A DNA stretch of 64,000 bases from an uncultured Flavobacteriales bacterium (GTDB taxonomy: Bacteria > Bacteroidota > Bacteroidia > Flavobacteriales_F > PHOS-HE28). Within the stretch, counting starts at the first letter, position 1. Each line of letters begins with the position of its first letter. The stretch spans positions 62,001 to 126,000 of the forward strand of contig CALMPI010000009.1 of the NCBI GenBank assembly GCA_937872175.1, written 5' to 3'. The notes under the pieces are model-generated. The model was not told where the DNA came from. It worked only from the letters and a program-made list of their open reading frames with translations, and did no database searches. Of this stretch, positions 18,766 through 33,735 are shown piece by piece. The position numbers and the translations under genes were made by a program.

Positions 18766-20484
18766 ATGAAGCACACGCTCCTCCTTGCCCTCGCGCTTTC
18801 GCCCGCCCTGGCCCTGGCCCAGCCCCAGATGAACAACGCCGGCTTCGAGACCTGGCAGAACCTGGGCACGGGCACCGAGGAGCCTACGGACTGGAGCTCG
18901 ATCAAGACGGCTGATCAGCTCGGAACTTTCGCTCCACAGGTGTGCTGGCGAAGCGCTGACTTTCATACTGGGAGCTTCTCAGTTCGGTTAAGGACTGAGT
19001 CGGCGCTCGGCGGAATCGCGGCGAACGGAACACTGACCTGCGGGCGCGTCCATGCCGATTTCAACCCCGCAAACGGCTACGTTTTCACCGATGCGGCGGA
19101 CGCGCAGTGGAACCAGACCATGACCAGCCGGCCGGACAGCCTGGTGGGCTGGTTCAAGGCAACCCCACAGCCTGGGGACAAGGGAAAGGTGGAGGCGATC
19201 CTGCACATCAGTAATGGTCAACTACCTGCGGGTAGCACATTCCCGAACTGGATAAGCCGAGCACGATGGGTCGCTCCTACGAGCACGGTCGGAGTTTGGA
19301 CCCGATTCAGCGTGCCGTTCACCTATTACAACGGCGGCACGCCGAGCCATATCCTGATGGTCCTGACGAGCGGCGACAGTACGGTCACCCAAGTTGGAAG
19401 CGAGAGCCTGTACGACGACATCGCACTGATCTACAACGTGACACCCACGCCCAGTGTGAACAGCGTGGCGCTGAACGGGACGGATCCGGCGCTGATCACG
19501 GTGAACTACAGCACGGGTGGCGTGCCCACCACGAGCACGCTCTTCACGGCGCAGTTGAGCGACGCCAACGGCAGCTTCGCCAGTCCGGTGAACATCGGCT
19601 TCATCGGCAGCACCTCCGCGACGGGCGCGATCAGCTGCAGCATCCCGGGCAACACGCCGCCGGGAGCGGGGTACAGGATCCGGGTCACCACCCCGAGCGC
19701 GTTCTATGCCCCGGTGAGCGTGCCCTTCACGATCACCGGCAGCGCCGTGGTGCGCGTGGCGGCCAAGGTCTTCCTCGACGGTCCGTACGTGAGCGGCACC
19801 CAATTGATGAACGACAACCTGCGCAATCTGGGCATCATCCCCTCCGTGGAGCCCTACACGGGCATCGGCTACGCGCATGCGGGCGGTGGAGGGGAAAGCA
19901 CCACGGCCCCGGTCCTGGCCGTCACCGGCAACAACGCCATCGTGGACTGGGTGGTGCTGGAGCTGCGCGACAAGAACAACAGCGCCACGGTGCTGCGCAC
20001 GCGCAGTGCGCTGGTGCAGCGTGATGGCGATGTGGTGGACGTGGACGGTGTGTCCAGCGTGCCCTTCACGGTGGCCGCGGACAATTACTTCGTGGCGGTG
20101 CGCCACCGCAACCACCTGGGGTGCATGACGGCCACCAGCATCGCGTTGAGCGGTACGGCGGCCGCGGTGGACTTCACGAACAACGCCACGGCCACCTTCG
20201 GCACCAACGCCCGGCGGGTGAACGGTGCGCGCAGCACGCTGTGGACGGGCAATGCCCGGCGCGACAACGTGGTGAAGTACACGGGCAGCAACAACGACCG
20301 CGATGTGATCCTCACCGCCATCGGTGGCACGGTGCCCACGGCCACGGCGGCGGGCTATCGCATTGAGGATGTGAACCTGGACGGTACCACCAAGTACGCC
20401 GGTGGCGCGAACGACCGCGACCTCATCCTGCAGGTGATCGGTGGCACGGTGCCCACGGCCACGAAGCTGGAGCAGCTGCCGTAG
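18766..20484 (+). CDS. Secreted protein G: PCMD-like head, Ig-like domain and shared QLP module
   Basis: A 572-residue protein with a signal peptide ending LALAQ. Residues about 20-225 begin with NNAGFETWQN and resemble the PCMD-type putative carbohydrate domain (jelly-roll) found in Bacteroidota. Residues about 230-325 look like an Ig-like or gliding-associated domain. Residues about 328-572 are the C-terminal module shared with genes A-F and H (LMNDNLRNLGIIPSVEPYTG, AIVDWVVLELRD, VAVRHRNHLGCMTA, two NDRD loops, LEQLP end). The ATG at 18766 fits both the signal peptide and the upstream promoter. It is not part of the A-F chain, being separated from it by pirin and the cupredoxin gene. Confidence 0.85.
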   Translation: MKHTLLLALALSPALALAQPQMNNAGFETWQNLGTGTEEPTDWSSIKTADQLGTFAPQVCWRSADFHTGSFSVRLRTESALGGIAANGTLTCGRVHADFNPANGYVFTDAADAQWNQTMTSRPDSLVGWFKATPQPGDKGKVEAILHISNGQLPAGSTFPNWISRARWVAPTSTVGVWTRFSVPFTYYNGGTPSHILMVLTSGDSTVTQVGSESLYDDIALIYNVTPTPSVNSVALNGTDPALITVNYSTGGVPTTSTLFTAQLSDANGSFASPVNIGFIGSTSATGAISCSIPGNTPPGAGYRIRVTTPSAFYAPVSVPFTITGSAVVRVAAKVFLDGPYVSGTQLMNDNLRNLGIIPSVEPYTGIGYAHAGGGGESTTAPVLAVTGNNAIVDWVVLELRDKNNSATVLRTRSALVQRDGDVVDVDGVSSVPFTVAADNYFVAVRHRNHLGCMTATSIALSGTAAAVDFTNNATATFGTNARRVNGARSTLWTGNARRDNVVKYTGSNNDRDVILTAIGGTVPTATAAGYRIEDVNLDGTTKYAGGANDRDLILQVIGGTVPTATKLEQLP

Positions 20485-20496
20485 CCGGGCGGACGC

Positions 20497-21462
20497 TCAG
20501 TGCTGGAGCGGCCGCTTCTTGATCATGCCGCCGCGGGTGTCCTTCACGGGGCTCATCACCACGAAGGCGTTGGGATCGATCTTCTCGATCTCGGTGAGGA
20601 TCTTGCTCAGCTCCAGGCGGGTGATCACGCAGTAGATGATCTCCGTGTCGAAGCTTTGACCGTTCTTGCCGAAGCCGCGCCGGCCCGTGTAGACCGTGAG
20701 GCCACGGCCCATCACCGTGCCGATCATGTGGCGCAGCTCCTCGTGGTGCGGGCTGATGATGGTGAGGCCGGTGTACTCCTCGATGCCCTCGATCACGAAG
20801 TCCACCGTCTTGCTCGCGGCGAGGTAGGTCACCATGGCGTACAGGGCGGTCTCCACTCCCAGCAGCCAGGCGGCCACGCCGAAGATGACCAGGTTGATCA
20901 CCATGATGATGTCGCCGATGGTGGTGCCGAGCTTCCGGCTGAGCGCCAGGGCGAGCACTTCGGTGCCATCGATCACCGAGCCGCCGCGCACGGCCAGCCC
21001 GATGCCGGCACCGAGGAAGAAGCCGCCGAACACGGCCACCAGCAGCTTGTCGTGCGTCACGTCGGGGAAGTGCACCGTGGCGGTGACCAGGGCCAGGCCC
21101 GCGATGGCGGCCATCGTCTTCAGGGCGAACTCACGACCGATGGTGCGATAGGCCACCACCATGAACGGCGCGTTCACCACCACGAGCAGCAGGGCCAGCG
21201 GCAGGCCGGTGAGGTTCACGGCGAGCAGGGCGATGCCGGTGGCGCCGCCGTCGATGAAGGCGTTGGGGATCAGGAAGCCCTCCAGGCCGAAGGCGGCGCT
21301 GAAGATCCCGAGCGTCATGAAGAGCACGTCCTTCACGCGGCGGCGGAAGGCCACACGCAGGGCGTGCAGGCGGCGCGCCCTGCGGTAGCGGCTCCGCTCG
21401 CTGCCCACGCTGGAGGGCACGGGCAGCTGGCGGATCAGGGCGTGGCGCGGGGACGACTTCAC
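20497..21462 (-). CDS. YitT family membrane protein (DUF161 + DUF2179)
   Basis: A 321-residue protein: a basic N-terminus, then five or six membrane segments in about 45-215 (LGIFSAAFGLEGFLIPNAFIDGG, ALLLVVVNAPFMVVAY, LLVAVFGGFFLGAGIGLAV, IIMVINLVIFGVAAWLLG), then a C-terminal soluble DUF2179 domain (GLTVYTGRRGF, IIYCVITRLELSKI, DPNAFVVMSPVKDTRGG). The family is widespread, with no settled function. The start is taken as GTG at 21462, which overlaps the Ppx stop as GTGA. The first internal ATG would cut into the first membrane segment. Confidence 0.85.
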   Translation of the reverse strand: MKSSPRHALIRQLPVPSSVGSERSRYRRARRLHALRVAFRRRVKDVLFMTLGIFSAAFGLEGFLIPNAFIDGGATGIALLAVNLTGLPLALLLVVVNAPFMVVAYRTIGREFALKTMAAIAGLALVTATVHFPDVTHDKLLVAVFGGFFLGAGIGLAVRGGSVIDGTEVLALALSRKLGTTIGDIIMVINLVIFGVAAWLLGVETALYAMVTYLAASKTVDFVIEGIEEYTGLTIISPHHEELRHMIGTVMGRGLTVYTGRRGFGKNGQSFDTEIIYCVITRLELSKILTEIEKIDPNAFVVMSPVKDTRGGMIKKRPLQH

Positions 21463-22403
21463 GGCACAAAAGGTAGTCCGTTCAGCACTCGCCAGGCGGC
21501 CCCCTCCTTCAGGGCGTAGCGGCTCCACGCGAGCTGGCGGATGCCGCCGGCGGTCAGCACGCGGTCGATCGCCACCAGGCCATAGGCGATGTGGTCCACG
21601 CGGTGCGCGGGAAGACCGGGCGCCCGGCTGCGTGCGTCGCGGTCCATGCGCATCAACCCGTCCTTCAGCTGCGCGAAGGCCAGGTCGTCGAAGCCGAGGG
21701 TGAGCGCCCCCTCTGGCAGTGTGCCACCCCGGGTCCGGGCGATCATGGTGGCCAGGCTGTCGAAGCTGCCTGCGCTGCCGACCAGGACATGCGGCTCGTG
21801 GCGCTCGATGACGGCCCACAGCGGTTCCAGCCGGTCGTCGAGATGGGCGGACAGGCGCAGCTCCTCCTCCAGGGTGGGCGGCTCGCTGAAGGGCACACGT
21901 GAACGCAGGCGGGTGACGCCCAGTTCGAAGCTTCGTTTCCACATCAGGGCATGGCGCGTGGCCAGGATGAACTCGATGCTGCCGCCGCCGATGTCCATCA
22001 CCAGCATGGGCCGGTCGGTGAAGGGGACGGCCAGACGCACCCCGTCCAGGATCAGCTCCGCCTCGGTATCGCCGTCCACGACCTCCACGGTGAGGGCGAA
22101 GGCGGCATGAGCACGGCGCAGGAACTCACCGCGGTCGCGGGCGTTCCGGAGCGCGGAGGTGCCGATGGCCGACATGCGCTCCACACCGAGGTCGCGCGCG
22201 GTCGTCAGATGCGCACGCAGGGCGTCCAGCCCGCGTTCCATCGCATCCTCGGCAAGGGAGCCGTCCTCGATCCCACGGCCCAGGAACACGGGCAGTTCGG
22301 CGGAGCGCAGCACGTTCAGGCCACCCTTCGGCGCATGTGCGGCCACCAGCAGGTTGAAGGTGTTGGTGCCCAGGTCGAGCACCGCGATGGGCGGGTCGCT
22401 CAT
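21459..22403 (-). CDS. Ppx/GppA family phosphatase
   Basis: A 314-residue protein of the ASKHA fold: phosphate-1 motif VLDLGTNTFNLLVA at the N-terminus, TSALRNARDRGEF near 105, phosphate-2 motif MDIGGGSIEFIL near 145, and GSAGSFDSLA near 215. Family enzymes remove phosphate from polyphosphate ends or from pppGpp. At this length it is a one-module form without the C-terminal HD-like part of long Ppx proteins. It overlaps the YitT gene downstream by GTGA, so the two are probably co-expressed. An octamer repeat array lies immediately upstream. Confidence 0.9.
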   Translation of the reverse strand: MSDPPIAVLDLGTNTFNLLVAAHAPKGGLNVLRSAELPVFLGRGIEDGSLAEDAMERGLDALRAHLTTARDLGVERMSAIGTSALRNARDRGEFLRRAHAAFALTVEVVDGDTEAELILDGVRLAVPFTDRPMLVMDIGGGSIEFILATRHALMWKRSFELGVTRLRSRVPFSEPPTLEEELRLSAHLDDRLEPLWAVIERHEPHVLVGSAGSFDSLATMIARTRGGTLPEGALTLGFDDLAFAQLKDGLMRMDRDARSRAPGLPAHRVDHIAYGLVAIDRVLTAGGIRQLAWSRYALKEGAAWRVLNGLPFVP

Positions 22404-22411
22404 GTCACGCG

Positions 22412-22457
22412 CATGGGCATATGCTCACATGGACACATGCTCACATGGGCACATGGG
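22412..22457. repeat. Period-8 CATG octamer array, locus 1
   Basis: On the minus strand the sequence reads as consecutive octamers CATGTGCC, CATGTGAG, CATGTGTC, CATGTGAG, CATATGCC. It fills the gap between the ABC permease stop and the Ppx start. A second array with the same period and CATGTG core lies at 34028-34080. Confidence 0.8.
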
Positions 22458-23780
22458 CTAGCCCTTGTAGAACATCCAGCGGCCCATCTCGCGCCAGCTC
22501 ACCTTCTTGCCGTACATGAGGATGCCGGTGCGGTAGATGCGGCCGGCGAGCCAGGTGGTGAACAGGAAGGTGCCCACCAGCAGCACCATGCTGAGGATGA
22601 GCTGCCAGGGGGTCTCGAGCACGCTGCCCATGGCCACACGCACCATCATCACCACGGGACTGGTGAAGGGGATGATGGAGCCCCAGAACACCAGCGGGCT
22701 GCCGGGGTTGGTGATGGCCATCTGCGCGATGAAGATGGCCACGATCATGGGCAGGGTCACGGGGAACATGAACTGCTGCGTGTCGGTCTCGCTGTCCACC
22801 GCGCTGCCCACGGCGGCGAAGAGGGAGCTGTAGAGCAGGTATCCGGCCAGGAAGTAGAAGACGAACATGCCCAGCACGAAGGGGATGTTGAGGCGGCTGA
22901 CCACCTCCATCACCTTGTTGCGGTCGGGGGCCTGGGCGCCGGCCTCCTTCATCAGTTCGGCCTGCAGTTCGCCGGTCATCTGCTGTTCGGCCAGCACTTC
23001 GCGCGGGTCCAGGCGGTCCTTCATCAGCAGGGCGGTGCCGGCGGTCATCAGGGTGGCGGTGAGGGCGATCCAGATGGTGAACTGGGCCAGGCCCACCAGC
23101 GCGATGCCGATGATCTTGCCCATCATCAGCTGGAAGGGCTTCACGCTGCTGATGAGCACCTCCACGATGCGGTTGCTCTTCTCCTCCAGCACGCCGCGCA
23201 TCACCTGCACGGCATAGAGGAAGACGAAGAAGAACATGATGTAGCCGAACCCGAAGCCCACGGCGGCCAGCACCTGCTCGTAGCTCTCCTCACCGGCCTT
23301 GTCGATGTCGAAGAGCTGCACGTTCAGCGCGGTCTTGATGCGGGCGTAGGTGTCGGGGTCCACCTGGTTCACGCGAAGCTTCTCCCGTTCCAACGTGCGC
23401 TCCAGTTCGCTCTGCACCGTGCGCTGCACGTTCATGCTGGGCAGGTCCTTGTAGAAGAGCTGGATGGTGTTGGTCTCCAGGATGGCCTCGTTCACGTCGA
23501 CCATCAGCGTGTAGGGCGAGGCTTTGAAGGCCGAGTCGCCCAGTTCGTCGTACGCATAGAAGAAGCGCACCTTGTCGGTGTCGCGCAGCTTGCCGGTCAC
23601 CACGTGTGGCTTGTCCACCACCAGCACCAGGTGCTCGTCGCTCTCCTGCATGCCCAGATAGACCAGGCCCACCATGGTGCCGGCGATCAGCAGCGGACCC
23701 AGGATGGTCATGATCAGGAAGCTCGGTTTCCGCACGCGGGTGATGAACTCGCGCCGGATGATGAGGAGGATCTTGTTCAT
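22458..23780 (-). CDS. ABC-2 type exporter permease (NatB-like)
   Basis: A 440-residue permease. It has an N-terminal membrane segment (FLIMTILGPLLIAGTMVGLVYLG), a large extracytoplasmic region at about 50-180, and then about five membrane segments in the C-terminal half, including GFGYIMFFFVFLYAVQVMRGV followed by EEKSNRIVEVLISSVKP, typical of NatB/ABC-2 permeases. It pairs with the ATPase gene 13 bp upstream on the same strand. Homologues export sodium, drugs or peptides; the substrate here is unknown. Confidence 0.88.
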   Translation of the reverse strand: MNKILLIIRREFITRVRKPSFLIMTILGPLLIAGTMVGLVYLGMQESDEHLVLVVDKPHVVTGKLRDTDKVRFFYAYDELGDSAFKASPYTLMVDVNEAILETNTIQLFYKDLPSMNVQRTVQSELERTLEREKLRVNQVDPDTYARIKTALNVQLFDIDKAGEESYEQVLAAVGFGFGYIMFFFVFLYAVQVMRGVLEEKSNRIVEVLISSVKPFQLMMGKIIGIALVGLAQFTIWIALTATLMTAGTALLMKDRLDPREVLAEQQMTGELQAELMKEAGAQAPDRNKVMEVVSRLNIPFVLGMFVFYFLAGYLLYSSLFAAVGSAVDSETDTQQFMFPVTLPMIVAIFIAQMAITNPGSPLVFWGSIIPFTSPVVMMVRVAMGSVLETPWQLILSMVLLVGTFLFTTWLAGRIYRTGILMYGKKVSWREMGRWMFYKG

Positions 23781-23793
23781 GGCGTGGGGCGGT

Positions 23794-24729
23794 TCATTCG
23801 GTCATGTCGGCGGGCACGGCACCATGGGCGTGCACGGCGCGGATGAACACGTCGTGCATGCGCGGGATCTCCTCCTGCACGCCGTGCACCTCCACGGCGG
23901 GCAGCAGCTGGCGGAGGACGTGGTTCACGGTGGAGTCGTGCAGCAGGCGCACACGGGCGGTGCTGTATTCCTCGCCCTCGGTGTGCTCCAGCAGTTCGCC
24001 GGTGAAGGAGAGGGCGTTGGCGAAGGCGACCTTGTTGCCGGTGTGCTCGATCCGGTAGGTGCGGGTGGCGAACTGCCGCCGGATGTCGCGCACGCGGCCG
24101 TCCAGCACCTTGCGGCTGCGGTCGATGAGGGCGATGTGGTCGCAGAGCTCCTCCACGCTGCCCATGTTGTGGGTGCTCAGCATCACGGTGGTGCCCTCGC
24201 TGCGCAGCCGCAGGATCTCCTGGCGGACGAGCTCGGCGTTGATGGGGTCGAAACCGCTGAAGGGCTCGTCGAGGATGAGGAGCTTGGGCGCGTGAAGCAC
24301 GGTGCTCACGAACTGCACCTTCTGCGCCATGCCCTTGCTGAGCTCCTCCACCTTCTTGTTCCACCAGGCGGTCATCTCCCAGCGCTCGAACCATTCCTTG
24401 AGCCGCTTTCGGGCCTCGGCCTTGTGCAGGCCTTTGAGCTGGGCGAGGTAGAGGGCCTGTTCGCCCACCTTCATCTTCTTGTACAGGCCGCGCTCCTCGG
24501 GCAGGTAGCCGATGTGGGCCACATCCGCCTGGGTCATGGGCCGGCCTTCCAACAGCACCTGCCCCGAATCCGGTGCGGTGATGCGGGTGATGATGCGGAT
24601 GAGCGAGGTCTTGCCCGCTCCATTGGGGCCCAGCAATCCGAAGATGCCGCCGGCGGGCACGGTGAGGGAGACGTCGTCCAGCGCGGTGTGGGCGCCGTAG
24701 CGTTTCACGATGTGCTCACAGGTCAGCAT
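23794..24729 (-). CDS. ABC transporter ATP-binding protein (NatA-like)
   Basis: A 311-residue ATPase with Walker A LGPNGAGKTSL, Q-loop region YLPEERGLYKKM, signature LSKGMAQK, Walker B LLILDEPFSGFDP and H-loop STHNM. The DUF4162-like C-terminal domain (about 220-310) is typical of NatA-type exporters. It energises the adjacent permease. A minus-strand TATCTTCG box at 24766-24759 lies 29 bp before the ATG, and no other gene separates the pair, so they form a two-gene operon. Confidence 0.93.
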   Translation of the reverse strand: MLTCEHIVKRYGAHTALDDVSLTVPAGGIFGLLGPNGAGKTSLIRIITRITAPDSGQVLLEGRPMTQADVAHIGYLPEERGLYKKMKVGEQALYLAQLKGLHKAEARKRLKEWFERWEMTAWWNKKVEELSKGMAQKVQFVSTVLHAPKLLILDEPFSGFDPINAELVRQEILRLRSEGTTVMLSTHNMGSVEELCDHIALIDRSRKVLDGRVRDIRRQFATRTYRIEHTGNKVAFANALSFTGELLEHTEGEEYSTARVRLLHDSTVNHVLRQLLPAVEVHGVQEEIPRMHDVFIRAVHAHGAVPADMTE

Positions 24730-24758
24730 GGGTCGTGCGCCGGGGTTGGGTGCGGCGA

Positions 24759-24766
24759 CGAAGATA
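24759..24766 (-). promoter_or_regulatory. Probable -7 element of the ABC exporter operon
   Basis: Minus-strand TATCTTCG, one base from TAnnTTTG, 29 bp upstream of the ATPase ATG. Confidence 0.45.
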
Positions 24767-24822
24767 GCCGGGCCGTTCAGCGCGGACCGGGCGGCCCATG
24801 GAGGCGGGCGGCCGCTCGTGGA

Positions 24823-25818
24823 TCAGGTGGTGGCCATGGCGCGGCGCAGTTCGCGCATGGTGAGCATGCGCTGTTGCACCGGGTCCCACACCTTCAGCCG
24901 CAGGCACTTCACCACGTCCCACGGCCAGAGACTGGTGGTCTTGGCGTGCTGCAGCTCGGGGATCGCGGCATGCACCTCGGGTAGGCGGTAGAAGGGGATG
25001 CGCGGGTTGAGGTGGTGGATGTGGTGGTAGCCGATGTTGGCCAGGAACCAGCGCATCACGGGGCTCATCTTCATGTGGCTGCTGCTGTCCAGCGCGGCGC
25101 TGGCGTAGGTCCAGCCCTCCTTGTCGGCGAAGGTGACGCCCGGGAAATTATGCTGGGCGTAGAACAGGTAGGCGCCCAGGCTCAGCACCAGCAGGAAGGG
25201 GAGCATGAAGCCGAAGAGGAAGCCGCTCCAGCCGGTGAAGAGCACCAGCACCACGGCGAAGGCCACATGCAGGATCAGCGCGATGATGCTGTCCCAGTGG
25301 CGGCCCGTGTTGTTCACCAGGCTGCGGATGCACATGCCGTAGAGGAACATGAAGATGTAGCCGAAGGCGATGGTGAGCGGATGCCGGATGAAGAGGTAGA
25401 CGCGCTGCTCGAACTTCGAGCTCGACAGGAACTTCTCGGTGGTGACCACCGGGTAGCTTCCGATGCTGCTCGTGTACAGCTTGCTGTTGTGCGCGTGGTG
25501 GTAGTTGTGGCTGCGCTCCCAGATGCTCACCGGGGCGAGCATGAACAGGCCGAAGAGGGTGAAGAAGCCTTTGGCCAGGTGGGACTTCTGCAGGATGGCG
25601 TGGTGCAGGTAGTCGTGGTAGATCACGAACATCCGGCCGAGGGTGAGGGCCACCAGCAGGCTGCCGAGCGCCCGGCTCCACCAGGGGTCGGTGCCGAACA
25701 CCACTGTGTAGCCCGCGGCCAGCACCACCAGGCTCGTGAACACATGCCACCAACTCTTCCACCGGATCTCGTGTGCGAAGGGGCGGGTGGCCAGGATGAG
25801 GTCCTTTCCGTCGCGCAT
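24823..25818 (-). CDS. Fatty acid desaturase family protein
   Basis: A 331-residue integral membrane di-iron protein. The three histidine clusters are present: HDYLHH near residue 68, HNYHHAH near 104 and HHIHHLNP near 267. Four hydrophobic segments lie between and around them (VVLAAGYTVVFG, LFGLFMLAPVSI, FAVVLVLFTGWSGFLFGF). It would insert a double bond into lipid acyl chains, or hydroxylate or cleave a lipid-like or carotenoid substrate. A TATTTTTG promoter box ends 5 bp before the ATG. The next gene upstream on the same strand is a lipid acyltransferase. Confidence 0.9.
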   Translation of the reverse strand: MRDGKDLILATRPFAHEIRWKSWWHVFTSLVVLAAGYTVVFGTDPWWSRALGSLLVALTLGRMFVIYHDYLHHAILQKSHLAKGFFTLFGLFMLAPVSIWERSHNYHHAHNSKLYTSSIGSYPVVTTEKFLSSSKFEQRVYLFIRHPLTIAFGYIFMFLYGMCIRSLVNNTGRHWDSIIALILHVAFAVVLVLFTGWSGFLFGFMLPFLLVLSLGAYLFYAQHNFPGVTFADKEGWTYASAALDSSSHMKMSPVMRWFLANIGYHHIHHLNPRIPFYRLPEVHAAIPELQHAKTTSLWPWDVVKCLRLKVWDPVQQRMLTMRELRRAMATT

Positions 25819-25823
25819 GGGAA

Positions 25824-25831
25824 CAAAAATA
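25824..25831 (-). promoter_or_regulatory. -7 element of the desaturase gene, very close to the ATG
   Basis: Minus-strand TATTTTTG is a perfect match to TAnnTTTG and ends only 5 bp before the start codon. The transcript could therefore begin at or near the ATG (leaderless). Confidence 0.6.
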
Positions 25832-25863
25832 GCCCTCGCGCACGAGTTGCCGTCAGCCTTTCG

Positions 25864-26736
25864 TCAGGTGGCGGGTCGTTCGTGTTTCCAGCGGCGGTGG
25901 GACCAGAGCCAGATGGCGGGCCTGCGGCGGATGTCCTGCTCCAGCCGCCGGGTGTGGGCCTCGCTGATGAAACCCTCCGGTGTGGCCTTGGGGTCGGGCA
26001 CCAGGTCCTCGAAGCGCATCACGTAGCGGCCCCGGGCCTCCCGGTCGATCCCGCAGTACACGATGGGCTGTCCAAGTTTCCGGGCGATCTTCTCCGTACC
26101 CCAGAACACCGGGGTGTCCTGGTTCAGAAAGGTGGTCCAGAAGGCGCGCTCGGGCGGGGGGGTCTGGTCCGCGATGAAGGCCGTCGCCGTCACCAGGTGC
26201 CGGTCCCGGACCATGCATTTGAGGGTGTCGGCCATGGGGTAAAGTCCGTTCCCGAGCCGGGTGCGCATGTGCACGATGAGGCGGTCGAAGTGCGGGTTCT
26301 GCAAGGGATGGTAGATCACGTTCAGGCGGTGCAGGCCGATCTGGCTGAAGCGCGCCCCGCCCAGTTCCCAGTTGCCCCAGTGGCCCATCACGATGATGAT
26401 GCTGCGCCTGGCCTCGTAATGCCGCCGCAGCACCTCCTCGCCCTCGGTGCGCACCAGCCGTTTCACCTGCTCCGGGGTGATGGTCAGGGTCTTCAGGGTC
26501 TCCAACGTCAGGTCGCAGAACCAGCGGTAGAAGTCGCGCTCGATGCGGGCCCTGGCCGCTTCATCCAGGTCCGGAAAGCTGTTGCGCAGGTTGGTGCGCA
26601 CCACGGCGCGGCGGTAGCGCAGCACGTAAAAGAGCAGAACGAACGTGCAATCGCTCAGCAGGTAGAGCAGGGGCATGGGCAGCCACGCCACGGCATGGAT
26701 GAACGGCAGGGAGACGTAGTAGCCCAGGGCGCCCAC
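25864..26736 (-). CDS. Lysophospholipid/lipid A acyltransferase family protein (HtrB/LpxL-like)
   Basis: A 290-residue protein with an N-terminal hydrophobic anchor (about 10-45) and the HxxxxE catalytic motif in VMGHWGNWELGG near 125. Further family blocks are IYHPLQNPHFDRLI, FIADQTPPPERAFWTTFLN, and WLWSHRRWKHERP near the C-terminus. It transfers an acyl chain to a lipid A precursor, or to an aminolipid in some Bacteroidota. It sits 45 bp upstream of the desaturase on the same strand, so the two lipid-modifying enzymes may be co-expressed, although the desaturase also has its own promoter box. Confidence 0.9.
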   Translation of the reverse strand: MGALGYYVSLPFIHAVAWLPMPLLYLLSDCTFVLLFYVLRYRRAVVRTNLRNSFPDLDEAARARIERDFYRWFCDLTLETLKTLTITPEQVKRLVRTEGEEVLRRHYEARRSIIIVMGHWGNWELGGARFSQIGLHRLNVIYHPLQNPHFDRLIVHMRTRLGNGLYPMADTLKCMVRDRHLVTATAFIADQTPPPERAFWTTFLNQDTPVFWGTEKIARKLGQPIVYCGIDREARGRYVMRFEDLVPDPKATPEGFISEAHTRRLEQDIRRRPAIWLWSHRRWKHERPAT

Positions 26737-26773
26737 GGTGCGAAGATGGTGCGGGCGGGCCGCCAGGCCGACC

Positions 26774-27616
26774 TCAGCGTTTCATCCAGCGCACCTGCGC
26801 GGTGCGACCGTCGGCTGAACGGACCCTCGCCACGTAAAGCCCCGGTGGCAGGGTGGTTACATCCACCATCATGGGCATGCCGGGCGATGTACCGGTCCGG
26901 AGCGGCACTCGACGACCCTGCACGTCCGCCACTTCCACCTCCACGGGCACACCACCCTCCACGTTCAGGTACACGGTCCCCTCGGCCGGGTTGGGGAATA
27001 CGCTGGCGTGAAGTCCATTTCGCTCCTCGAACCCGGTGGACGTGTTCAGGTCGAAGCCGATGTCCTGCCAGGTGGTGCTCGTGGTGCTGCCCGTCAGGTC
27101 GGTGGGGTTCAGCGAGTACAGCTTTCGGTCGGTGTTGGTGGTGCCGTAACAGCCGAAGTTGGTGGTGGTGCTGTTGGTGAAGTGGATGTCCACGATCAGC
27201 GTCTGTGCGGGGTCGAAGAGGAAGGGCGTCTGCATGGGGATCACGAACCAGTCGCCCGCGGTGCCCGGGGGGATGTCGAAGGTGGCCAGCTGGAGCACGG
27301 TGTCGAGCCCGGTGAAGAAGGTGTTGCCGCCGGTGAAGGTGGTGGCCGTGGTCTGGCCCATGCGCACGAGCAGGGCGCCGAGGGTGTTGCCGTTGGCCAC
27401 ACCGGTGGTGCCATACCGGTAATAGAGCCGGGTGATCTCGCCCGCCGAGGCGTTCGTGAGGTCGCCGGGCAGGTAGAGGCACTGGGTGTGCGGGGCGGTG
27501 CCCACGTTACCCAGCAGGAAGGTGCTGTTGCTGGTGCCGCAGCACTTCTGCACGGCTTGAGCGTGCGCGTGGGTGAGGCTGGCTGCGGCCAGGGCCAGGG
27601 TCAGGGTCCGGAGCAT
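26774..27616 (-). CDS. Secreted T9SS cargo protein of unknown function
   Basis: A 280-residue protein: signal peptide (MLRTLTLALAAASLTHAHAQ), a beta-rich middle (about 25-200) with QCLYLPGDLTNASAGEI and a few cysteines, then a T9SS type A tail (HASVFPNPAEGTVYLNVEG ... LPPGLYVARV). The middle resembles adhesin- or choice-of-anchor-like beta-sandwich regions, but I cannot name the family. A TACCTTGG box lies 19 bp before the ATG. The start was chosen by the signal peptide; the open frame extends further upstream without meaning. Confidence 0.75.
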   Translation of the reverse strand: MLRTLTLALAAASLTHAHAQAVQKCCGTSNSTFLLGNVGTAPHTQCLYLPGDLTNASAGEITRLYYRYGTTGVANGNTLGALLVRMGQTTATTFTGGNTFFTGLDTVLQLATFDIPPGTAGDWFVIPMQTPFLFDPAQTLIVDIHFTNSTTTNFGCYGTTNTDRKLYSLNPTDLTGSTTSTTWQDIGFDLNTSTGFEERNGLHASVFPNPAEGTVYLNVEGGVPVEVEVADVQGRRVPLRTGTSPGMPMMVDVTTLPPGLYVARVRSADGRTAQVRWMKR

Positions 27617-27635
27617 CGGCAGGGAGGATGTTCCG

Positions 27636-27643
27636 CCAAGGTA
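27636..27643 (-). promoter_or_regulatory. Possible -7 element
   Basis: Minus-strand TACCTTGG, one mismatch to TAnnTTTG, 19 bp before the ATG of the T9SS cargo gene. Confidence 0.4.
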
Positions 27644-27680
27644 GCGGATCCCGCACGCACGCTTCGGGCCCCGGGCCGGC

Positions 27681-28073
27681 TCAGAGCTTCTTGATCTCCT
27701 TCTCGGTGACCCACTTGTCGCCGAAGAGGCCGTTGTCGAACTTGATGTGGTACTTGTTCTCACCCACCTCGATCACGGTCGCAGGTTCGGGCACCATGCC
27801 GTACTCCACCTCCACCTTGTCGCCCACCTTGAACTTGGTGAGCCCGCCGGACGGAGCTTCGGTGGCGCCGCCCTTGATGCGGTCGGGGCCCACCCACTCG
27901 TTGAAGGTCTCGCTCCAGCCATCATAGCTCACGAAGTACTGGCCGTCCTTCACCTCCAGCACCTTGCCCGGATACCAGGCGCCGGCGGATTCGATCTGCA
28001 CCTTGTCGCCGGCCCGCTGGGCGGTGGCGCCGAGGCCGGACAGCAGGAAGAGGAGGGGAAGCAGGGTACGCAT
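27681..28073 (-). CDS. Secreted small protein with Tudor-knot/chromo-barrel-like repeats
   Basis: A 130-residue protein with a signal peptide of about 18 residues (ending ATAQ), followed by two small barrel-like units. The first, GAWYPGKVLEVKDGQYFVSY followed by DGWSETFNEWVGPDRI, closely matches the Tudor-knot/chromo-barrel pattern (YxGKVL...YYVHYxGWxxxxDEWV). The second is FKVGDKVEVEY...PATVIEVGENKYHIKFDNG. In eukaryotes this fold reads histones or RNA. In secreted bacterial proteins its ligand is unknown. The ATG at 28073 is chosen for the signal peptide. A TACCTTGG box lies 29 bp upstream. Confidence 0.78.
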   Translation of the reverse strand: MRTLLPLLFLLSGLGATAQRAGDKVQIESAGAWYPGKVLEVKDGQYFVSYDGWSETFNEWVGPDRIKGGATEAPSGGLTKFKVGDKVEVEYGMVPEPATVIEVGENKYHIKFDNGLFGDKWVTEKEIKKL

Positions 28074-28102
28074 GGGATGGGGGCTGTTGGGGTTACGAGG
28101 TC

Positions 28103-28110
28103 CCAAGGTA
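28103..28110 (-). promoter_or_regulatory. Possible -7 element
   Basis: Minus-strand TACCTTGG, 29 bp before the ATG of the Tudor-knot-like gene. Confidence 0.35.
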
Positions 28111-28164
28111 GTGCGGGACGGTGGCAGCAGGACAAGCGTCATGCCAAAGCACGGAGTGGGCGCC

Positions 28165-28172
28165 TTACTTTG
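28165..28172 (+). promoter_or_regulatory. Probable -7 element of the mla operon, very close to the ATG
   Basis: TTACTTTG ends 5 bp before the mlaE ATG. It keeps the TTTG half and a TA one base out of register. Its position suggests a leaderless or near-leaderless transcript. Confidence 0.4.
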
Positions 28173-28177
28173 CTCGC

Positions 28178-28948
28178 ATGGCGGAGCGGAGCGGGTTCCA
28201 CGCGCTGGCGGTGGAGGCGGGCGAGCTGGCCGGCTTCGCCGGGCGCTTCTTCCGCAACGCCTTCCACGCGCGGTTCGAGTGGCGTGAACTGGTGCGGCAG
28301 GCCGCGATCAACGGCTATCAGTCCCTGCCGCTGGTGGGCATCACGGCCTTCATCATGGGGCTGGTGCTCACCGTGCAGAGCCGGCCCACGCTGGCGCGCT
28401 TCGGGGCGGAGAGCATGCTGCCGGCCATGGTGGCCATCAGCGTGGTGCGCGAGATCGCCCCGGTGATCACCGCGCTGATCTGCGCGGGCAAGATCGGCAG
28501 CAGCATGGGGGCCGAGCTGGGCAGCATGAAGGTCACCGAGCAGATCGACGCCATGGAGGTGAGCGGCACCAATCCCTTCCGGTACCTGGCCGTCACCCGC
28601 ATCTGGAGCACGACATTGATGCTGCCGGTGCTGGTGGTGCTGGCGGACGCCATCGCCATCTGGGCCAGCTGGGTGGGCGTCAACATCCGCGACACGGTAA
28701 GCTGGCCGCTGTTCTACCGCCAGGTGTTCGATTCGCTCGAGTACGGCGACTTCCTGCCCGCCTTCGCCAAGAGCTACCTCTTCGGCTTCGCCATCGGGGT
28801 GGTGGGCTGCTTCAAGGGCTTCACCACGGCCAAGGGCACCGAGGGGGTGGGCCGCAGCGCGCACACCGCTGTCGTGGTGGCCAGCCTGCTCATCTTCATC
28901 CTCGACCTCATCGCCGTGCAGATCACCGACCTGCTCGGGCTCACCTGA
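28178..28948 (+). CDS. mlaE: MlaE family lipid ABC transporter permease
   Basis: A 256-residue permease with about five membrane segments and the MlaE hallmark blocks IMGLVLTVQSRPTLARFGAE, VVREIAPVITALICAGKIGSSMGAELG, MKVTEQIDAMEVSGTNPF and GVVGCFKGFTTAKGTEGVG. It forms the inner-membrane core of an Mla-type phospholipid transport complex between the outer and inner membranes. The ATG at 28178 is chosen from the conserved start and its promoter box. The stop overlaps the mlaF start (TGATG). MlaB and MlaC homologues are not present here, as is usual in Bacteroidota. Confidence 0.95.
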   Translation: MAERSGFHALAVEAGELAGFAGRFFRNAFHARFEWRELVRQAAINGYQSLPLVGITAFIMGLVLTVQSRPTLARFGAESMLPAMVAISVVREIAPVITALICAGKIGSSMGAELGSMKVTEQIDAMEVSGTNPFRYLAVTRIWSTTLMLPVLVVLADAIAIWASWVGVNIRDTVSWPLFYRQVFDSLEYGDFLPAFAKSYLFGFAIGVVGCFKGFTTAKGTEGVGRSAHTAVVVASLLIFILDLIAVQITDLLGLT

Positions 28949-29709
28949 TGGCCGCCACCGACACCCCGCCCGTCGCCGAGCGCGTGATCGCCGTGCGCGA
29001 TCTGCAGGTCGCCTTCGGCACCAACAAGGTGCTGCGCGGCTTCGACCTCGACCTGTACCGCGGCGAGAACGTGATGGTGCTCGGCAAGAGCGGCAGCGGC
29101 AAGAGCGTGCTCATCAAGTGCATCGTGCGGCTCCTGAGCCCCGATGCCGGCCGCATCGAAGTCCTCGGACAGGATGTGCTGGCGCTCGACCAGGAGCAGC
29201 TGGACCACCTGCGCGTGCGCATCGGCTTCCTGTTCCAGAGCAGCGCGCTGTACGACAGCATGACGGTGCAGGAGAACCTGGAGTTCCCGCTCCGGCGCCA
29301 TTGGCTGGCCACCTCACGTGCGGCCACCGAGGCGCTGGTGGACGAGGTGCTCACCGCCGTGGGGCTGGCGCACACCCGCGCCATGTACCCCAGCGAGCTC
29401 AGCGGCGGCATGAAGCGCCGCATCGGCCTGGCGCGCACCCTCATCCTCAAGCCGGAGATCGTGCTCTACGATGAGCCCACCACCGGCCTGGACCCGATCA
29501 CCGGGCGCGAGATCGTGGAGCTCATCCTGCAGCTCCAGCGGCAGTACAACACCAGCAGCATCATCATCTCGCACGACCTCAACGTGGCCAAGCTCGCCGC
29601 CAACCGCATCGCGCTGCTGCACGAGGGCCGCAACCGCGTCGAGGGTTCGTACACCGACTTCCTCGCCAGCAACGATCCCGTCGTCAAGGAGTTCTTCATC
29701 TTCATGTGA
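28948..29709 (+). CDS. mlaF: MlaF-type ABC transporter ATP-binding protein
   Basis: A 253-residue ATPase with Walker A LGKSGSGKSVL, a Q-loop in IGFLFQSSALYDSMTV, signature LSGGMKRRIGLAR, Walker B LYDEPTTGLDP and H-loop IISHDL. The SxLYDSMTV and GGMKRR blocks are typical of MlaF rather than other importers. It is translationally coupled to mlaE through the TGATG overlap and lies 3 bp upstream of mlaD. Confidence 0.95.
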   Translation: MAATDTPPVAERVIAVRDLQVAFGTNKVLRGFDLDLYRGENVMVLGKSGSGKSVLIKCIVRLLSPDAGRIEVLGQDVLALDQEQLDHLRVRIGFLFQSSALYDSMTVQENLEFPLRRHWLATSRAATEALVDEVLTAVGLAHTRAMYPSELSGGMKRRIGLARTLILKPEIVLYDEPTTGLDPITGREIVELILQLQRQYNTSSIIISHDLNVAKLAANRIALLHEGRNRVEGSYTDFLASNDPVVKEFFIFM

Positions 29710-29712
29710 GCC

Positions 29713-30696
29713 ATGCCCAGCACCTCCGGACAGTCCCTTCGCCTTGGTCTATTCGTTCTGGCCGGCACCGCGGTGCTCGTCATCGGCCTTTACCTGCTGG
29801 GCAGCAAGCGCGACCTGTTCAGCAGCACCATCACGGTGGAGGCCGTGTTCCAGCAGGTGGGCGGTCTGCGGCCGGGCAACAACGTGCGCTACATGGGCAT
29901 CAATGTGGGCACGGTGAAGGACATCGCCATCACCAGCGACACCACGGTGCGTGTGCGCCTGGCGATCCGCGAGGAGGCGGCCGGGCACATCCGCAGCAAC
30001 GCCGTGGCCACCGTGGGCACCGACGGGCTCATGGGCAACCGCCTGGTGAACCTGGCGCCGGGAGCGGGGGAGGGTGCCCCGCTGTCGGAGGATGTCGTGC
30101 TGCCGAGCAGCGTGCCGCTGGACACCGACCTGATGCTGCGCACCCTGGACCGCACCAACGCCAACCTGGCCGCCATCACGGACGATGTGCGGGAGCTGGC
30201 CGCCCGCCTCAACACCAAGGGCAACGCCGTGGACCTGCTGGCGGACACGGTGCTGGCGCACGACCTGAGCGCCGCGCTGCGCGAGATCCGCATCGCGGCC
30301 GGGCATGCGCGCGCGGCCACCGCGGGCATCGATGCGCTGATGGGCGACGTGCGCGAGGGCAAGGGCGTGCTCGGCACCCTGGTGGGCGACCCGGCCAGCG
30401 AACAGCAGGTGCGGGGCCTCTTGGGCAACCTGCGGCAGGTGAGCGATTCCCTGCATGCGGCCACCGAGGGCATCAACCGCTTCGCGGAGGCGCTGAACAC
30501 ACCCGGCGGCATGGCGCACACCCTGACGGCCGACACGCTGCTGACGCTCGACCTGCGGCGGACCCTCTCTCGCCTGGACACCGGTTCGGCCCTGCTCAAC
30601 GAGGACCTGCGGGCGCTGCAGCGCAACTGGTTCTTCCGCGGCTACTTCAAGGACAAGGAGAAGGTGCTGAAGCGCGACGCGCGGACGAGGCCGTGA
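29713..30696 (+). CDS. mlaD: MCE/MlaD family substrate-binding protein
   Basis: A 327-residue protein with one N-terminal membrane helix (LGLFVLAGTAVLVIGLYLLG), a single MCE domain at about 38-115 (FQQVGGLRPGNNVRYMGINVG ... VGTDGLMGNRLVNL), and a long helical C-terminal region at about 140-300 that may form the hydrophobic tunnel. It would bind and channel phospholipids for MlaEF. It is the last gene of the mlaEFD operon; the next gene is convergent 24 bp away. Confidence 0.93.
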   Translation: MPSTSGQSLRLGLFVLAGTAVLVIGLYLLGSKRDLFSSTITVEAVFQQVGGLRPGNNVRYMGINVGTVKDIAITSDTTVRVRLAIREEAAGHIRSNAVATVGTDGLMGNRLVNLAPGAGEGAPLSEDVVLPSSVPLDTDLMLRTLDRTNANLAAITDDVRELAARLNTKGNAVDLLADTVLAHDLSAALREIRIAAGHARAATAGIDALMGDVREGKGVLGTLVGDPASEQQVRGLLGNLRQVSDSLHAATEGINRFAEALNTPGGMAHTLTADTLLTLDLRRTLSRLDTGSALLNEDLRALQRNWFFRGYFKDKEKVLKRDARTRP

Positions 30697-30720
30697 GGGG
30701 CTCACCTGTTGTGCGCAGGC

Positions 30721-32514
30721 CTATGGCAATTGCGCATGTCGGACGGCCGTTGGAACCGTCCCACCGATGTTCTGCAGGATGAGGTCGCGGTCGTTGCTCC
30801 CACCGGTATAGCGGACCAGTCCGTTGAGGTTCAGGTCTTCCTGTCCGTACTGCCCGGTAAGGGTCGCGGTCGGCACGGTACCTCCGATGGCGTTGAGGAC
30901 GGGGTCGCGGTCGTTGCCGATCCCGGTGTACTTCACGTGTCCGTCACCGTTGAGGTCGCCTGCCCAGAGCACCAGGGTGTTGCCGATCGGTTTGCGGGCG
31001 TTGGATCCATAGGTTGGCGTGGTGGCCTGGGTCAGATCGATCGAGGTCGAGGAGGGGCCCAAAGCCAGCGGGCCAAGGGTCATCACAGGCAGATGGTTCC
31101 GATGGCGGACGGCCACGTGATACTGCCCCGGGGAGCCCGGAATGGCCAGCTCACTGATGCCGTCCAAGGCGACCACGTCGCCATCACGTTGTAGCAAAGC
31201 TGGTATTCGGCTCACCACGATCGCCGGGTCGGAGGCCTCACGTAGCTCCACAAGCAGCCAATCCACGATGGCGTTAACCCCGGTGATGGTCAATACGCCT
31301 GGGGACAGCGTGTCTCCGGCAGCGTAGGTGGGGGGGAGACCAAGTGAGGAGTACGGTTCGCTCTGGGGGAAGGCGGCCAGGCCACGGAGCGCATCCAACA
31401 TGGCACCGCTGCCGGTGTTGTACGGGCCCTCCAACCACACCTTCAGGGAAAGGCGGATCAGGTCACCACTGCAGGTGCAATCCGCGCGTACCACATCGTT
31501 CGGGGTTGCGGGGTCGCCATCGTCACAGGCAGTACCGGGCGTGCAATTCGCAGGCGTGAACGCGATGCCATAGTAGAAGGCCTGGCCGGTGGCTTGGTAC
31601 AGCAGTTCCTCGGGGCTGCCTGCTCCCAGATCGGTCCACTTGACCAGCTTCGTCGGTATGTTGTGGACCCCATAGATGACAGGGACGGTATCGTTGAAGT
31701 CCACCACGATCCGGACCAGCCCGTTGCTCGGGGCACAGAACAGGTCATAGGGATTGGTCCACACGCTGCCGTTCCACAGCATTTTCCGAACACGGTTGGG
31801 GCCATAGACAGCGTAGGCCGTGTTCCCGTCCGGGCTGAACTCGACGTCCAACGCATTGGGTACGGGGAACAACGAAGTGGCCGAAGCGGGTGCCGTGGGG
31901 GAGCCCTGACCGATCTGCAGCACGCCGTCCGTGCCCGAGCTCGTGCAGGAGTATAGTTGACCGTTGTCGAACCGGAGGCCCCTGGATGCGATCGGGTTGA
32001 TGACCTGCTGAGTTCCGGGCCCGAACAGGCAGACACCGCTTGATTGCGATCCGGTCCACACGTGGCTGTCGTCAACCGCGATCTGCGTCATGATCTCAGC
32101 ACTGAACAGCGCATTGGTCGCGTGCTCCCGGGTGCAGTTACCGCTTGCATCCATGCGGCCCACCACCCTGGGGACCTGGGCGGAGGAGGTGGAGGTTAGA
32201 ATTGTGGGGTAGGCCACCGTGGAGGCAAAACCCGTGAAGAAAAGGGCATCTCCTGATGGGGAGCGGGCCAACTGTGAACCCGTGGTCCAGTTCATGGTGC
32301 CGACCACGGCGTTCTGCCCTGTGCTGGGTACTTGGAACGTGGCCGTAGGTGTTCCGTCCTCGGTGAACTCCCGGATCACATAGGGTGCTCCGCTCAGGGA
32401 GCCGGTCGTGTATTCAAGGACCGCGAGGCGGCCTGGGGTGAAGGACTGGCCTCCGACGATGGTGGCGAGGGTCAGACCCAGGACAGGAGCGAAATACCGC
32501 AGGTTCCTGATCAT
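30721..32514 (-). CDS. Secreted protein H: propeller head with shared QLP module
   Basis: A 597-residue protein with a signal peptide (about 1-22, ending VGGQ). A propeller-like head at about 25-320 contains LLFPVPNALDVEF-like and DGNTAYAVYGPNRVRKMLWNG strands, then a short Cys-rich linker (CTPGTACDDGDPATPNDVV). The shared module occupies about 350-597 (MLDALRGLAAFPQSEPYSSL, AIVDWLLVELRE, ALLQRDGDVVALDG, VAVRHRNHLPVMT, two NDRD loops, HAQLP end). It is the most distant of the eight copies and stands alone on the opposite strand, next to the mla operon. Function unknown. Confidence 0.83.
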   Translation of the reverse strand: MIRNLRYFAPVLGLTLATIVGGQSFTPGRLAVLEYTTGSLSGAPYVIREFTEDGTPTATFQVPSTGQNAVVGTMNWTTGSQLARSPSGDALFFTGFASTVAYPTILTSTSSAQVPRVVGRMDASGNCTREHATNALFSAEIMTQIAVDDSHVWTGSQSSGVCLFGPGTQQVINPIASRGLRFDNGQLYSCTSSGTDGVLQIGQGSPTAPASATSLFPVPNALDVEFSPDGNTAYAVYGPNRVRKMLWNGSVWTNPYDLFCAPSNGLVRIVVDFNDTVPVIYGVHNIPTKLVKWTDLGAGSPEELLYQATGQAFYYGIAFTPANCTPGTACDDGDPATPNDVVRADCTCSGDLIRLSLKVWLEGPYNTGSGAMLDALRGLAAFPQSEPYSSLGLPPTYAAGDTLSPGVLTITGVNAIVDWLLVELREASDPAIVVSRIPALLQRDGDVVALDGISELAIPGSPGQYHVAVRHRNHLPVMTLGPLALGPSSTSIDLTQATTPTYGSNARKPIGNTLVLWAGDLNGDGHVKYTGIGNDRDPVLNAIGGTVPTATLTGQYGQEDLNLNGLVRYTGGSNDRDLILQNIGGTVPTAVRHAQLP

Positions 32515-32589
32515 GGGAACAGGTGCTAGGTGATGCCTTGTAGATGGTTAGACGTGCGGATGGGACAGGGTTGCCACCTTCCTGATGCA

Positions 32590-32617
32590 CGAACGGCGTC
32601 CCGCAGGACGCCGTTCG
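32590..32617 (-). terminator. Perfect GAACGG hairpin
   Basis: A 12-bp perfect stem CGAACGGCGTCC / GGACGCCGTTCG with a 4-nt loop, 50 bp past the stop of the minus-strand gene at 32667-33548. A near copy lies at 33736-33762. Confidence 0.6.
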
Positions 32618-32666
32618 CATGCCCCAGGACCGACGCCGGTCACCGCAGGCCCAGGACCCGTTCGGC

Positions 32667-33548
32667 TCACGCCTTGGTGAACCGCACCGTGCGTCGCTGA
32701 CCGTTCTGGTCGAGCACCAGCACATAGGTGCCGGGGTCCAGCCGGCTCACGTCCACCCGCTGTAGGGCCGGGCCGTGGAACCGGCCACCGAGCATGCCCC
32801 GCCCGGCCAGGTCGGTGATGTGCCAGTCCGCCGCATAGGCTTCCACGAAGAGGTCCTGTGCGCACGGGTTCGGATAGGCCTGCACGGGAAGGGTGCCGCG
32901 TTCGCTCAAGCCCACATCGCCCGGCGCGAAGACCAGTACGTTGTTCCCGTCATCGATCACGATGGGATGGAGCGGTGCCGTGTTCCAAAGGGTGAGCTCG
33001 TCCTCGGTGCTGGCCACCTTCGCCAGGTTCCCGAAGATGCCCAGCGGGGTGATGGCCGTTCCATGCCCCGAATAGGTCCAGGTCACCGTCCCGGGACCAT
33101 CGCTGTCCTCGTAAGTGTCGGTCTGGCTCTGACCGAGGTCCATGGGGAACGAGAGGATGCGCTTTGGATCGATGTAGTAGTTCGGATCGGACGGTACATC
33201 GGTGGCCACCACCTCCAACACGTTGATGTCGATGGTGAGGTACATGTGGTCGGTGCCCACACCGGTCACGGTCTGCACCCAGGCCCAGTTGGCCGAGGGG
33301 TACATGGCGGCAAAGGGCGTGTTGCCCGCGTTGGTGAAATCCAGCGTGCCGATGGGCTGCAGGGTCATGCTGCTCAGGTCCCAGGTCTGGTTCGCGCCGT
33401 CCGAGGGCTCGGTGGCCGACCCGGGGCTGGTCACCACGTACATGTCCAGCTGAACCCCGCCCGGCTCGACAAGGGCGGAGACCAGCGTGGGTTGGGCTTC
33501 GACGGAGAGAACGGGAAGTAGAAGGAATGCGAGAGTAATGTGTTTCAT
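32667..33548 (-). CDS. Secreted T9SS cargo protein of unknown function
   Basis: A 293-residue protein: signal peptide about 1-20 (ending SVEAQ), a beta-rich domain at about 25-215 with NQTWDLSSM and WTYSGHGTAITPLG, then a T9SS type A tail (LPVQAYPNPCAQDLFVEAY ... LDPGTYVLVLDQNG). The middle domain resembles uncharacterised Bacteroidota surface proteins, and I do not recognise an enzyme. The start is set by the signal peptide at 33548. It is flanked on both sides by related GAACGG hairpins, so it is probably a single-gene unit. Confidence 0.75.
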   Translation of the reverse strand: MKHITLAFLLLPVLSVEAQPTLVSALVEPGGVQLDMYVVTSPGSATEPSDGANQTWDLSSMTLQPIGTLDFTNAGNTPFAAMYPSANWAWVQTVTGVGTDHMYLTIDINVLEVVATDVPSDPNYYIDPKRILSFPMDLGQSQTDTYEDSDGPGTVTWTYSGHGTAITPLGIFGNLAKVASTEDELTLWNTAPLHPIVIDDGNNVLVFAPGDVGLSERGTLPVQAYPNPCAQDLFVEAYAADWHITDLAGRGMLGGRFHGPALQRVDVSRLDPGTYVLVLDQNGQRRTVRFTKA

Positions 33549-33735
33549 CAGGTTGTGTTTATCCGTGCAAGTTCGGTCGTGGCCCGTGCACCGGGCAGTC
33601 CGGACGGCCGGAGTTCTGCACCGGTCCGTGCTGAAGGACGTGCCAGGCCCGTGGCACCGCGGTACCTGCGCGCTGGCGGGGAGCGCTCGAGCCATCTGAG
33701 GACACCGTAGCCGACCACCGAGGTCCGAGAAGCAG

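Follow-up and report, generated by a model that had tools for sequence, protein, structure and literature searches.

The window, the whole stretch of 64,000 nucleotides that was analysed, comes from an uncultured Flavobacteriales bacterium and contains two adjacent minus-strand genes separated by 54 bp that consist almost entirely of a short repeat with a period of eight. The question raised by this locus is what kind of element such an array represents, and whether it serves the genes between which it lies.

Octamer arrays in the window and in the genus

The first array (22412–22458, minus strand) consists of six period-8 units, five with CATG and one mutated to TATG. The plus strand reads CATGGGCA TATGCTCA CATGGACA CATGCTCA CATGGGCA CATGG, for which Tandem Repeats Finder reported 5.9 copies with a period of 8 and also 2.8 copies with a period of 16. 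Both flanking genes have the minus strand as their sense strand, and there the units read CATGTGnn. As the initial annotation had described, they fill nearly all of the gap (22404–22457, minus strand, 54 bp), the first CATG following 2 nt after the upstream stop codon. The upstream gene (22458–23780, minus strand) encodes an ABC-2 family transporter permease (PF12698, E 1.7e-52), and the downstream gene (21459–22403, minus strand) a member of the Ppx/GppA phosphatase family (PF02541, E 2.4e-38). When this region (21459–23780) of the window's genome, G000, was compared with locus L228 of G029, the permease was 98% identical and the adjacent Ppx 80%, a sequence contrast that is possibly a sign of recombination near the array gap.

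The second array (34028–34079, minus strand), with seven CATG, lies 11,616 bp away from the first in the 54-bp gap (34031–34084, minus strand) between atpD (34085–35596, minus strand; ATP synthase alpha/beta family subunit, PF00006, E 6.5e-63) and atpC (33797–34030, minus strand; ATP synthase epsilon chain, PF02823, E 5.3e-26). The recurrence of the repeat 11.6 kb away in another short gap, also claimed from the sequence at the outset, was thereby confirmed. Read in sense, CATGTG units start from the atpD stop codon and give way to CACATG units; the last CATG of the array supplies the ATG start codon of atpC. Because the CATGTG units run into CACATG units, this array is self-complementary and two-armed.

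The initial annotation had named a lack of enrichment over shuffled sequence as the refuting result, and enrichment was found in the window and in the genome. The pattern CATGN4CATGN4CATG matched seven times in the window against 0.03 expected, and seven or more matches occurred in 0 of 100 dinucleotide-preserving shuffles. In the whole genome (4.30 Mb) it occurred at 59 places and the four-CATG pattern at 32, with zero matches for the reversed-pattern control in both cases. As a separate observation, the window also contains a 99-bp tandem repeat of 3.1 copies (46666–46973) with CATCTGTGTC decamers inside.

Four-unit arrays were present in 25 of the 45 genomes of the genus and absent from the other 20, and the control gave no match in any of them; the order-level search comprised the identical 45 genomes, and these abundance figures cover the genus. 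Outside the genus, where counts are lower bounds, a scan of named genomes gave at least 22 degenerate CATGTGnn-like arrays, picked by eye, among the 117 stretches listed. The 11 titled ones comprised nine Flavobacteriales, one Bacteroidota and one assembly named Chryseobacterium gleum. A scan of viral contigs gave 24 stretches, many of which were, as judged by eye, runs of one unit. On a tree of 30 Ppx proteins, eight changes between array-rich species (at least six four-unit matches) and array-poor ones were counted, a raw number without a shuffle baseline.

Unit, orientation and position of the arms

The relation of the arrays to genes was analysed in 101 array gaps from 14 species, comprising 23 gaps of G000, 72 found elsewhere by pattern and six obtained via atpC and Ppx searches. 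The 23 gaps derive from 25 array groups counted by eye in the G000 stretches and the window, those on L022 and L032 being left out, and the loci of other species are part of the places listed. Genes were called with a simple caller trained on Pfam-supported genes; starts are uncertain, and distances to starts are less sure than distances to stops.

In 568 CATGnnnnCATG units oriented by the nearer gene boundary, the four spacer positions carried 0.93 (T), 1.42 (G), 0.40 (C) and 0.04 bits of information. The hexamer CATGTG and two almost unconstrained bases make up the array unit, the third spacer base being biased to C and the fourth being free. Since slippage or copying between arms should, if acting alone, keep the eight bases uniform between units, recognition of a hexamer can fairly be inferred from this sequence pattern. 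Six mostly fixed bases and two nearly free ones look like recognition plus spacing, as would be the case if a sequence-specific protein bound CATGTG at 8-bp steps, spreading along the DNA from gene boundaries. The geometry would be comparable to that of MetJ on tandem 8-bp met boxes and of the omega protein on 7-bp heptads. A protein-binding ladder had been suggested in the initial annotation, and the fixed hexamer agrees with that suggestion, but no protein recognising CATGTG was identified in this analysis. Such a protein would also have to be dispensable, because 20 of the 45 genomes lack a four-unit array, and binding of this kind is considered doubtful.

The number of CATG per arm was determined for 133 arms, two CATGTG units being required per arm and some palindromic arrays being counted on both strands. 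Five CATG were found in 52 arms, three in 32, four in 28, and six or more in 21. Some arms contained a recurrent extra patch, AATGCCTCCTTGGTGG, and variants of it. A REP-like hairpin module, CATCCCGCTNNGGCGGGACAGGTCGTG, was also observed adjoining CATG arrays of G000 on L027 (about 2470–2530), L024 (about 2440–2520) and L034 (about 2560–2640), these coordinates being approximate since they were converted from minus-strand offsets. Hairpins of this type gave 24 loose hits in array loci, 16 of which had at least three CATG within 120 nt. Some right arms have a Shine-Dalgarno-like patch ahead of their first ATG, which led to consideration of the array as a translated peptide; this was rejected, as spacers starting with A give stop codons and are common (judged by eye).

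Where both orientations occurred in one gap, CATGTG lay on the left and CACATG on the right in 48 of 50 cases, the reverse order being seen in two. A further 31 gaps had CATGTG only and 18 had CACATG only; in the remaining two no arm was called. Single arms mostly obeyed the same rule, with CATGTG near the left boundary in 25 gaps and CACATG near the right in 12, against five and four placed the opposite way. These counts establish the inward orientation of the arms, and its persistence in single arms favours a protein spreading from the boundary.

Of 89 stop boundaries, 59 had their nearest arm no more than 15 nt from the stop codon, and 34 of 109 start boundaries had one equally close to the called start; at 23 of these 34 the terminal CATG was itself the called start codon. 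In gaps of 100–700 nt, an arm was found within 15 nt at 38 of 60 stop boundaries and 23 of 84 start boundaries, compared with 11.6 and 13.2 expected from random placement. The arms are thus anchored at stop codons, although insertion into gaps that were short ancestrally could account for part of this closeness to boundaries. Use of the terminal CATG as start codon was more frequent at same-strand (21/67) than at divergent (2/42) start boundaries (Fisher p 0.0007), which may partly reflect shorter same-strand gaps. A C at −1 is in any case common at starts here (71% and 58%). Among the ATG starts sampled from G000 (the window included), G008, G034 and G024, 58–72% followed a C, and no Shine-Dalgarno signal was found in the 12 nt before the ATG in these four genomes of the genus.

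The type of gap had almost no influence. The array gaps comprised 68 same-strand, 22 divergent and 11 convergent ones, almost equal to the G000 background (169, 57 and 28 of 254 gaps), and two-armed elements were not rarer in divergent (10/21) than in same-strand gaps (34/67, p 1.0). An element acting at the level of DNA would allow this indifference to gap type, including the use of divergent gaps. The neighbours included ATP synthase, CTP synthase and YidC, GidB, RRF, RecR, GldA and RsgA, Trp dioxygenase and TonB, an alanine dehydrogenase-like protein, and others. No regulon was evident among these mixed housekeeping genes, a mixture more in keeping with a nucleoid-type protein than with a regulator. 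The initial annotation did not include the directionality of the arrays, their anchoring at gene boundaries, their frequently two-armed form or their location at sites common to several species.

Shared sites and turnover

Among the 72 pattern-found sites, from 11 other species, 22 lay in gaps orthologous to an array gap of G000, compared with about 0.9 expected for a gap total estimated at 2353 and roughly 30 arrays. Array sites are thus shared across species. Matching of orthologous gaps gave 21 gap groups with arrays in at least two species, among them the gap between a hexapeptide acyltransferase and an ABC ATPase (seven species), the window's Ppx gap (six), the gap between GidB and a sigma factor (five), and atpD–atpC (four). 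Loci obtained by the atpC and Ppx searches were dropped from the site-sharing test, because the Ppx and atpD–atpC groups include loci fetched with those proteins.

In the gap orthologous to atpD–atpC, CATG arrays were found in G009, G022 and G004, and the arrays of G000 and G009 aligned without gaps. Where no CATG array was present, the gap was either about 3 nt long (G011, G037 and G008) or held other inverted or short-period sequence (e.g. G015, G013, G038 and G024), both as judged by eye. A target-site duplication of CATG would be indistinguishable from the start context, because CATG is already present at the start codon of some empty sites with gaps of about 3 nt.

Whole octamers have been gained or lost at some sites. 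Near-identical orthologous sites differed by 8 nt, i.e. one octamer (L050/L399), or by 16 nt, i.e. two (L040/L052), and the orthologous arrays of L033/L403 by one 8-nt and one 9-nt gap. At L025/L336 and L020/L356 the arrays diverged more than their flanks, as judged by eye. It was also observed that, between L025:5993–6412 (G000) and L336 (G029), 303 nt of intergenic DNA are 98% identical and the adjoining array differs.

Copy-number differences of 8, 16 and 8+9 nt would be expected of a neutral or selfish short-period repeat, which changes by slippage and by template switching in inverted repeats, persists in tolerant gaps and has no function for the host. The greater variation of arrays than of flanks, the unrelated short-period or inverted sequence in equivalent gaps of other species, the occurrence of heptamer and octamer arrays of other units in the same genomes, and gap types equal to background are all consistent with such an origin. 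Pure copying, however, should preserve all eight bases, two of which are nearly free, and slippage alone does not predict a peak of arm length at five CATG (52/133 arms). The sharing of sites is also far above what chance would give, although tolerant gaps could explain part of it. A neutral origin therefore appears possible, if rather unlikely.

Changes of whole octamers between species could also point to a phase-variation switch, in which octamer slippage upstream of a start codon would shift spacing or frame and so switch expression; 23 of 109 start boundaries have their start codon within the array. The neighbours, however, include the ATP synthase, CTP synthase, YidC, RRF and RecR families, which are not typical contingency genes, and short, degenerate arrays should damp slippage. 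The differences in array length were observed between species, and such a switch is the least probable of the readings considered.

Inverted arms in dispersed copies would further be compatible with the ends of a mobile element, the arms being terminal inverted repeats of MITE-like or REPIN-like units moved in trans, e.g. by a Y1 transposase. The recurrent patch within some arms and the REP-like hairpin near many arrays could be taken in the same sense. When the masked gaps were compared all against all, however, almost all of the 25 matching pairs came from orthologous sites or from short modules of hairpin type; outside orthologous sites, the matches comprised such modules, a tRNA and a small number of short stretches. 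Counts of Y1_Tnp (PF01797) were not positively correlated with array counts (Spearman −0.26, p 0.09, 44 genomes), G004 and G008 had 34 four-unit matches each and zero Y1_Tnp, and array sites were common to distant species. These results have already weakened the mobile-end reading, which is regarded as improbable. An autonomous mobile element was rejected, since loops were hardly shared between unrelated sites. In G000, the gap between CTP synthase and YidC contains 2.2 kb between two arms (L019:2095–4300), with a 502-aa frame; the frame was not read as a transposase, because it gave no Pfam match and the same gap measures 274 nt in G008 and 279 nt in G039.

Folding and relation to known repeats

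The RNA fold z-score of gaps with both orientations had a median of −3.19 and was below −2 in 24 of 31 gaps, compared with a median of about −1.9 (18/39 below −2) for one-orientation gaps and −0.33 (22/120) for control gaps. This gain is largely by construction, because the arms were defined by complementary hexamers. The first window gap folded with −21.1 kcal/mol (z −2.79) and the second with −26.6 kcal/mol (z −2.06); in the latter, the CACAUG of the atpC start codon formed the base of the stem, paired to the CAUGUG after the atpD stop codon. A smaller shuffle set without the start codon gave z-scores of −2.1 and −1.45, respectively. The suggestion in the initial annotation that the array could form alternative stems is borne out to the extent that two-orientation gaps outfold controls and that the atpD–atpC stem is predicted, with the same reservation as to construction.

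In-register spacers of the two arms agreed at 13 of 51 positions in 15 elements, some of them orthologous and hence non-independent, with 6.5 expected and 10 of 2000 permutations as high. This agreement speaks modestly for pairing or for copying between the arms; neither it nor the folding of whole gaps is predicted by protein binding at 8-bp steps. When 20 loci were compared with Rfam, no hit at an array reached the gathering threshold and the sole match was a tRNA adjacent to one array; in the window (20000–36800) a sub-threshold mir-941 hit (34030–34069) was the sole one touching an array.

The explanation favoured here, tentatively and with low confidence, is that the arrays form a family of extragenic, hairpin-forming repeats specific to this lineage, and that their stop-to-start stem would tune termination and re-initiation. 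Its best-supported step is the anatomy, i.e. an inverted pair of octamer arms spanning the gap between gene ends. Read inward from a gene boundary, one arm would typically comprise about four CATGTGnn units and a final CATG, and in the full element a second arm would mirror the first at the other boundary, across a loop of zero to over 100 nt. Between same-strand neighbours, the CAUGUG just after the stop codon would pair in the transcript with the CACAUG that contains or precedes the next start. The resulting stem would mask the start codon and sit where the terminating ribosome ends, and by analogy with REP hairpins near stop codons it might tune termination and re-initiation between the neighbouring genes. 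The hexamer would be kept because it makes short helices, and the two spacer bases would form small internal loops.

In favour of the hairpin are the inward order of the arms, their closeness to stop codons, the start-codon contrast between same-strand and divergent gaps, the fold z-scores, the in-register spacer agreement, the spacer information and the sharing of sites. Against the hairpin stand the one-orientation gaps, about half of the total (49 of the 99 with a called arm), which fold less well, and the agreement of gap types with background, divergent gaps included. It fails to explain the divergent gaps, because two arms there are normally not in one transcript. Mainly because divergent gaps are as frequent as in the background, confidence in the hairpin is low, and binding of a protein to the DNA and a neutral repeat are near equals to it. 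The atpD–atpC gap offers a concrete candidate for a stop-to-start hairpin in the ATP synthase operon, which can be mutated arm by arm.

Other short-period intergenic arrays were observed in the genus, with different heptamer or octamer units: L283:1208–1343 and L278:18382–18646 in G000, L320:12134–12339 and L324:11715–12072 in G024, and L316:1223–1402 in G034, several of them being inverted pairs. By eye, their units were GTGAATG in L283 and L320, GATGTGAA in L324 and GTTGTC in L316. The presence of these inverted arrays suggests a broader class of short-period arrays, of which CATGTGnn may be one motif. A more speculative and still less likely proposal is that the arrays act as gene-boundary punctuation, with about four CATGTG repeats, spaced by two nearly free bases, pointing inward at boundaries of any orientation and at conserved sites, read by a putative factor that would serve gene boundaries at large and not a regulon. 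The GTGAATG, GTTGTC and GATGTGAA arrays would then be sister codes in a broad, largely undescribed class. In these arrays the hexamer, orientation, place and site are fixed, whereas two bases, the copy number and the loop are free. As this split is not easily given by purely mutational models, function and neutral origin can be tested against each other.

Gene-boundary short-period repeats occur in unrelated bacteria, and no accepted function was found for them in the literature covered. In the open literature searched, outside which most subscription papers lie, no CATGTGnn array was found, and work on TAACTGA and REP repeats was found. TAACTGA heptamer repeats have been described in Beggiatoaceae, Cyanobacteria and some Bacteroidetes (MacGregor 2015, PMC4679880). 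According to the available part of that paper, they are intergenic, mostly close before start codons, have neighbours without a functional class, and are not predicted to have a particular RNA structure of their own; of the 14 sets in F. litoralis, 12 are directed at a start codon, and one right after a stop codon is reversed (PMC4679880). The CATGTGnn arrays resemble them, as far as that part goes, in being short-period and intergenic and in showing the same geometry of orientation to the start codon and reversal after the stop. They were likewise start-oriented and often close to starts, with inward arms in 48 of 50 gaps, 34 of 109 start boundaries within 15 nt and 23 at the ATG itself. They differ in having a period of 8 with two nearly free bases, instead of a fixed 7-base unit, and in forming paired inverted arms, which the available part of PMC4679880 does not describe for TAACTGA. 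Long simple sequence repeats and heptameric repeats in bacterial genomes (Mrazek et al., cited in the same part of PMC4679880) have a similar unit of about seven bases, but, as described there, are runs of one unit, in contrast to the nearly free dinucleotide and the inward pointing at both boundaries seen here.

REPs are dispersed extragenic palindromes that fold in RNA, and those within 15 nt of a stop codon, about 11% of the E. coli REPs, are reported to stall ribosomes in the part of the RepRanger paper available (PMC12306157). The arrays are likewise extragenic palindromes able to fold as RNA hairpins (two-armed z −3.19 vs −0.33), although one-orientation gaps reach only about −1.9. Unlike a REP, the CATGTGnn palindrome is made of tandem octamers, and an arm lay within 15 nt at 59 of 89 stop boundaries, far above the share of about 11% given in that part of the source. 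REPs in general are linked to RAYT/Y1 transposases, and in E. coli they avoid divergent (promoter) gaps. Neither property was found for the arrays, given the Spearman coefficient of −0.26 for PF01797 in 44 genomes and 22 of 101 array gaps being divergent against a background of 57 of 254. Nor was interior sequence common to unrelated sites, as in MITEs and transposons, since the 25 masked-gap pairs were nearly all orthologous or hairpin modules. In met boxes and omega heptads, contiguous 7- or 8-bp repeats are covered side by side by a dimeric protein; in contrast to MetJ and omega, no regulon was seen for the arrays, and their binder is putative only. The best reading of these comparisons is that the arrays represent a new octamer variant of the poorly understood short-period repeats at gene boundaries, closest to the TAACTGA heptamers and the REP hairpins.
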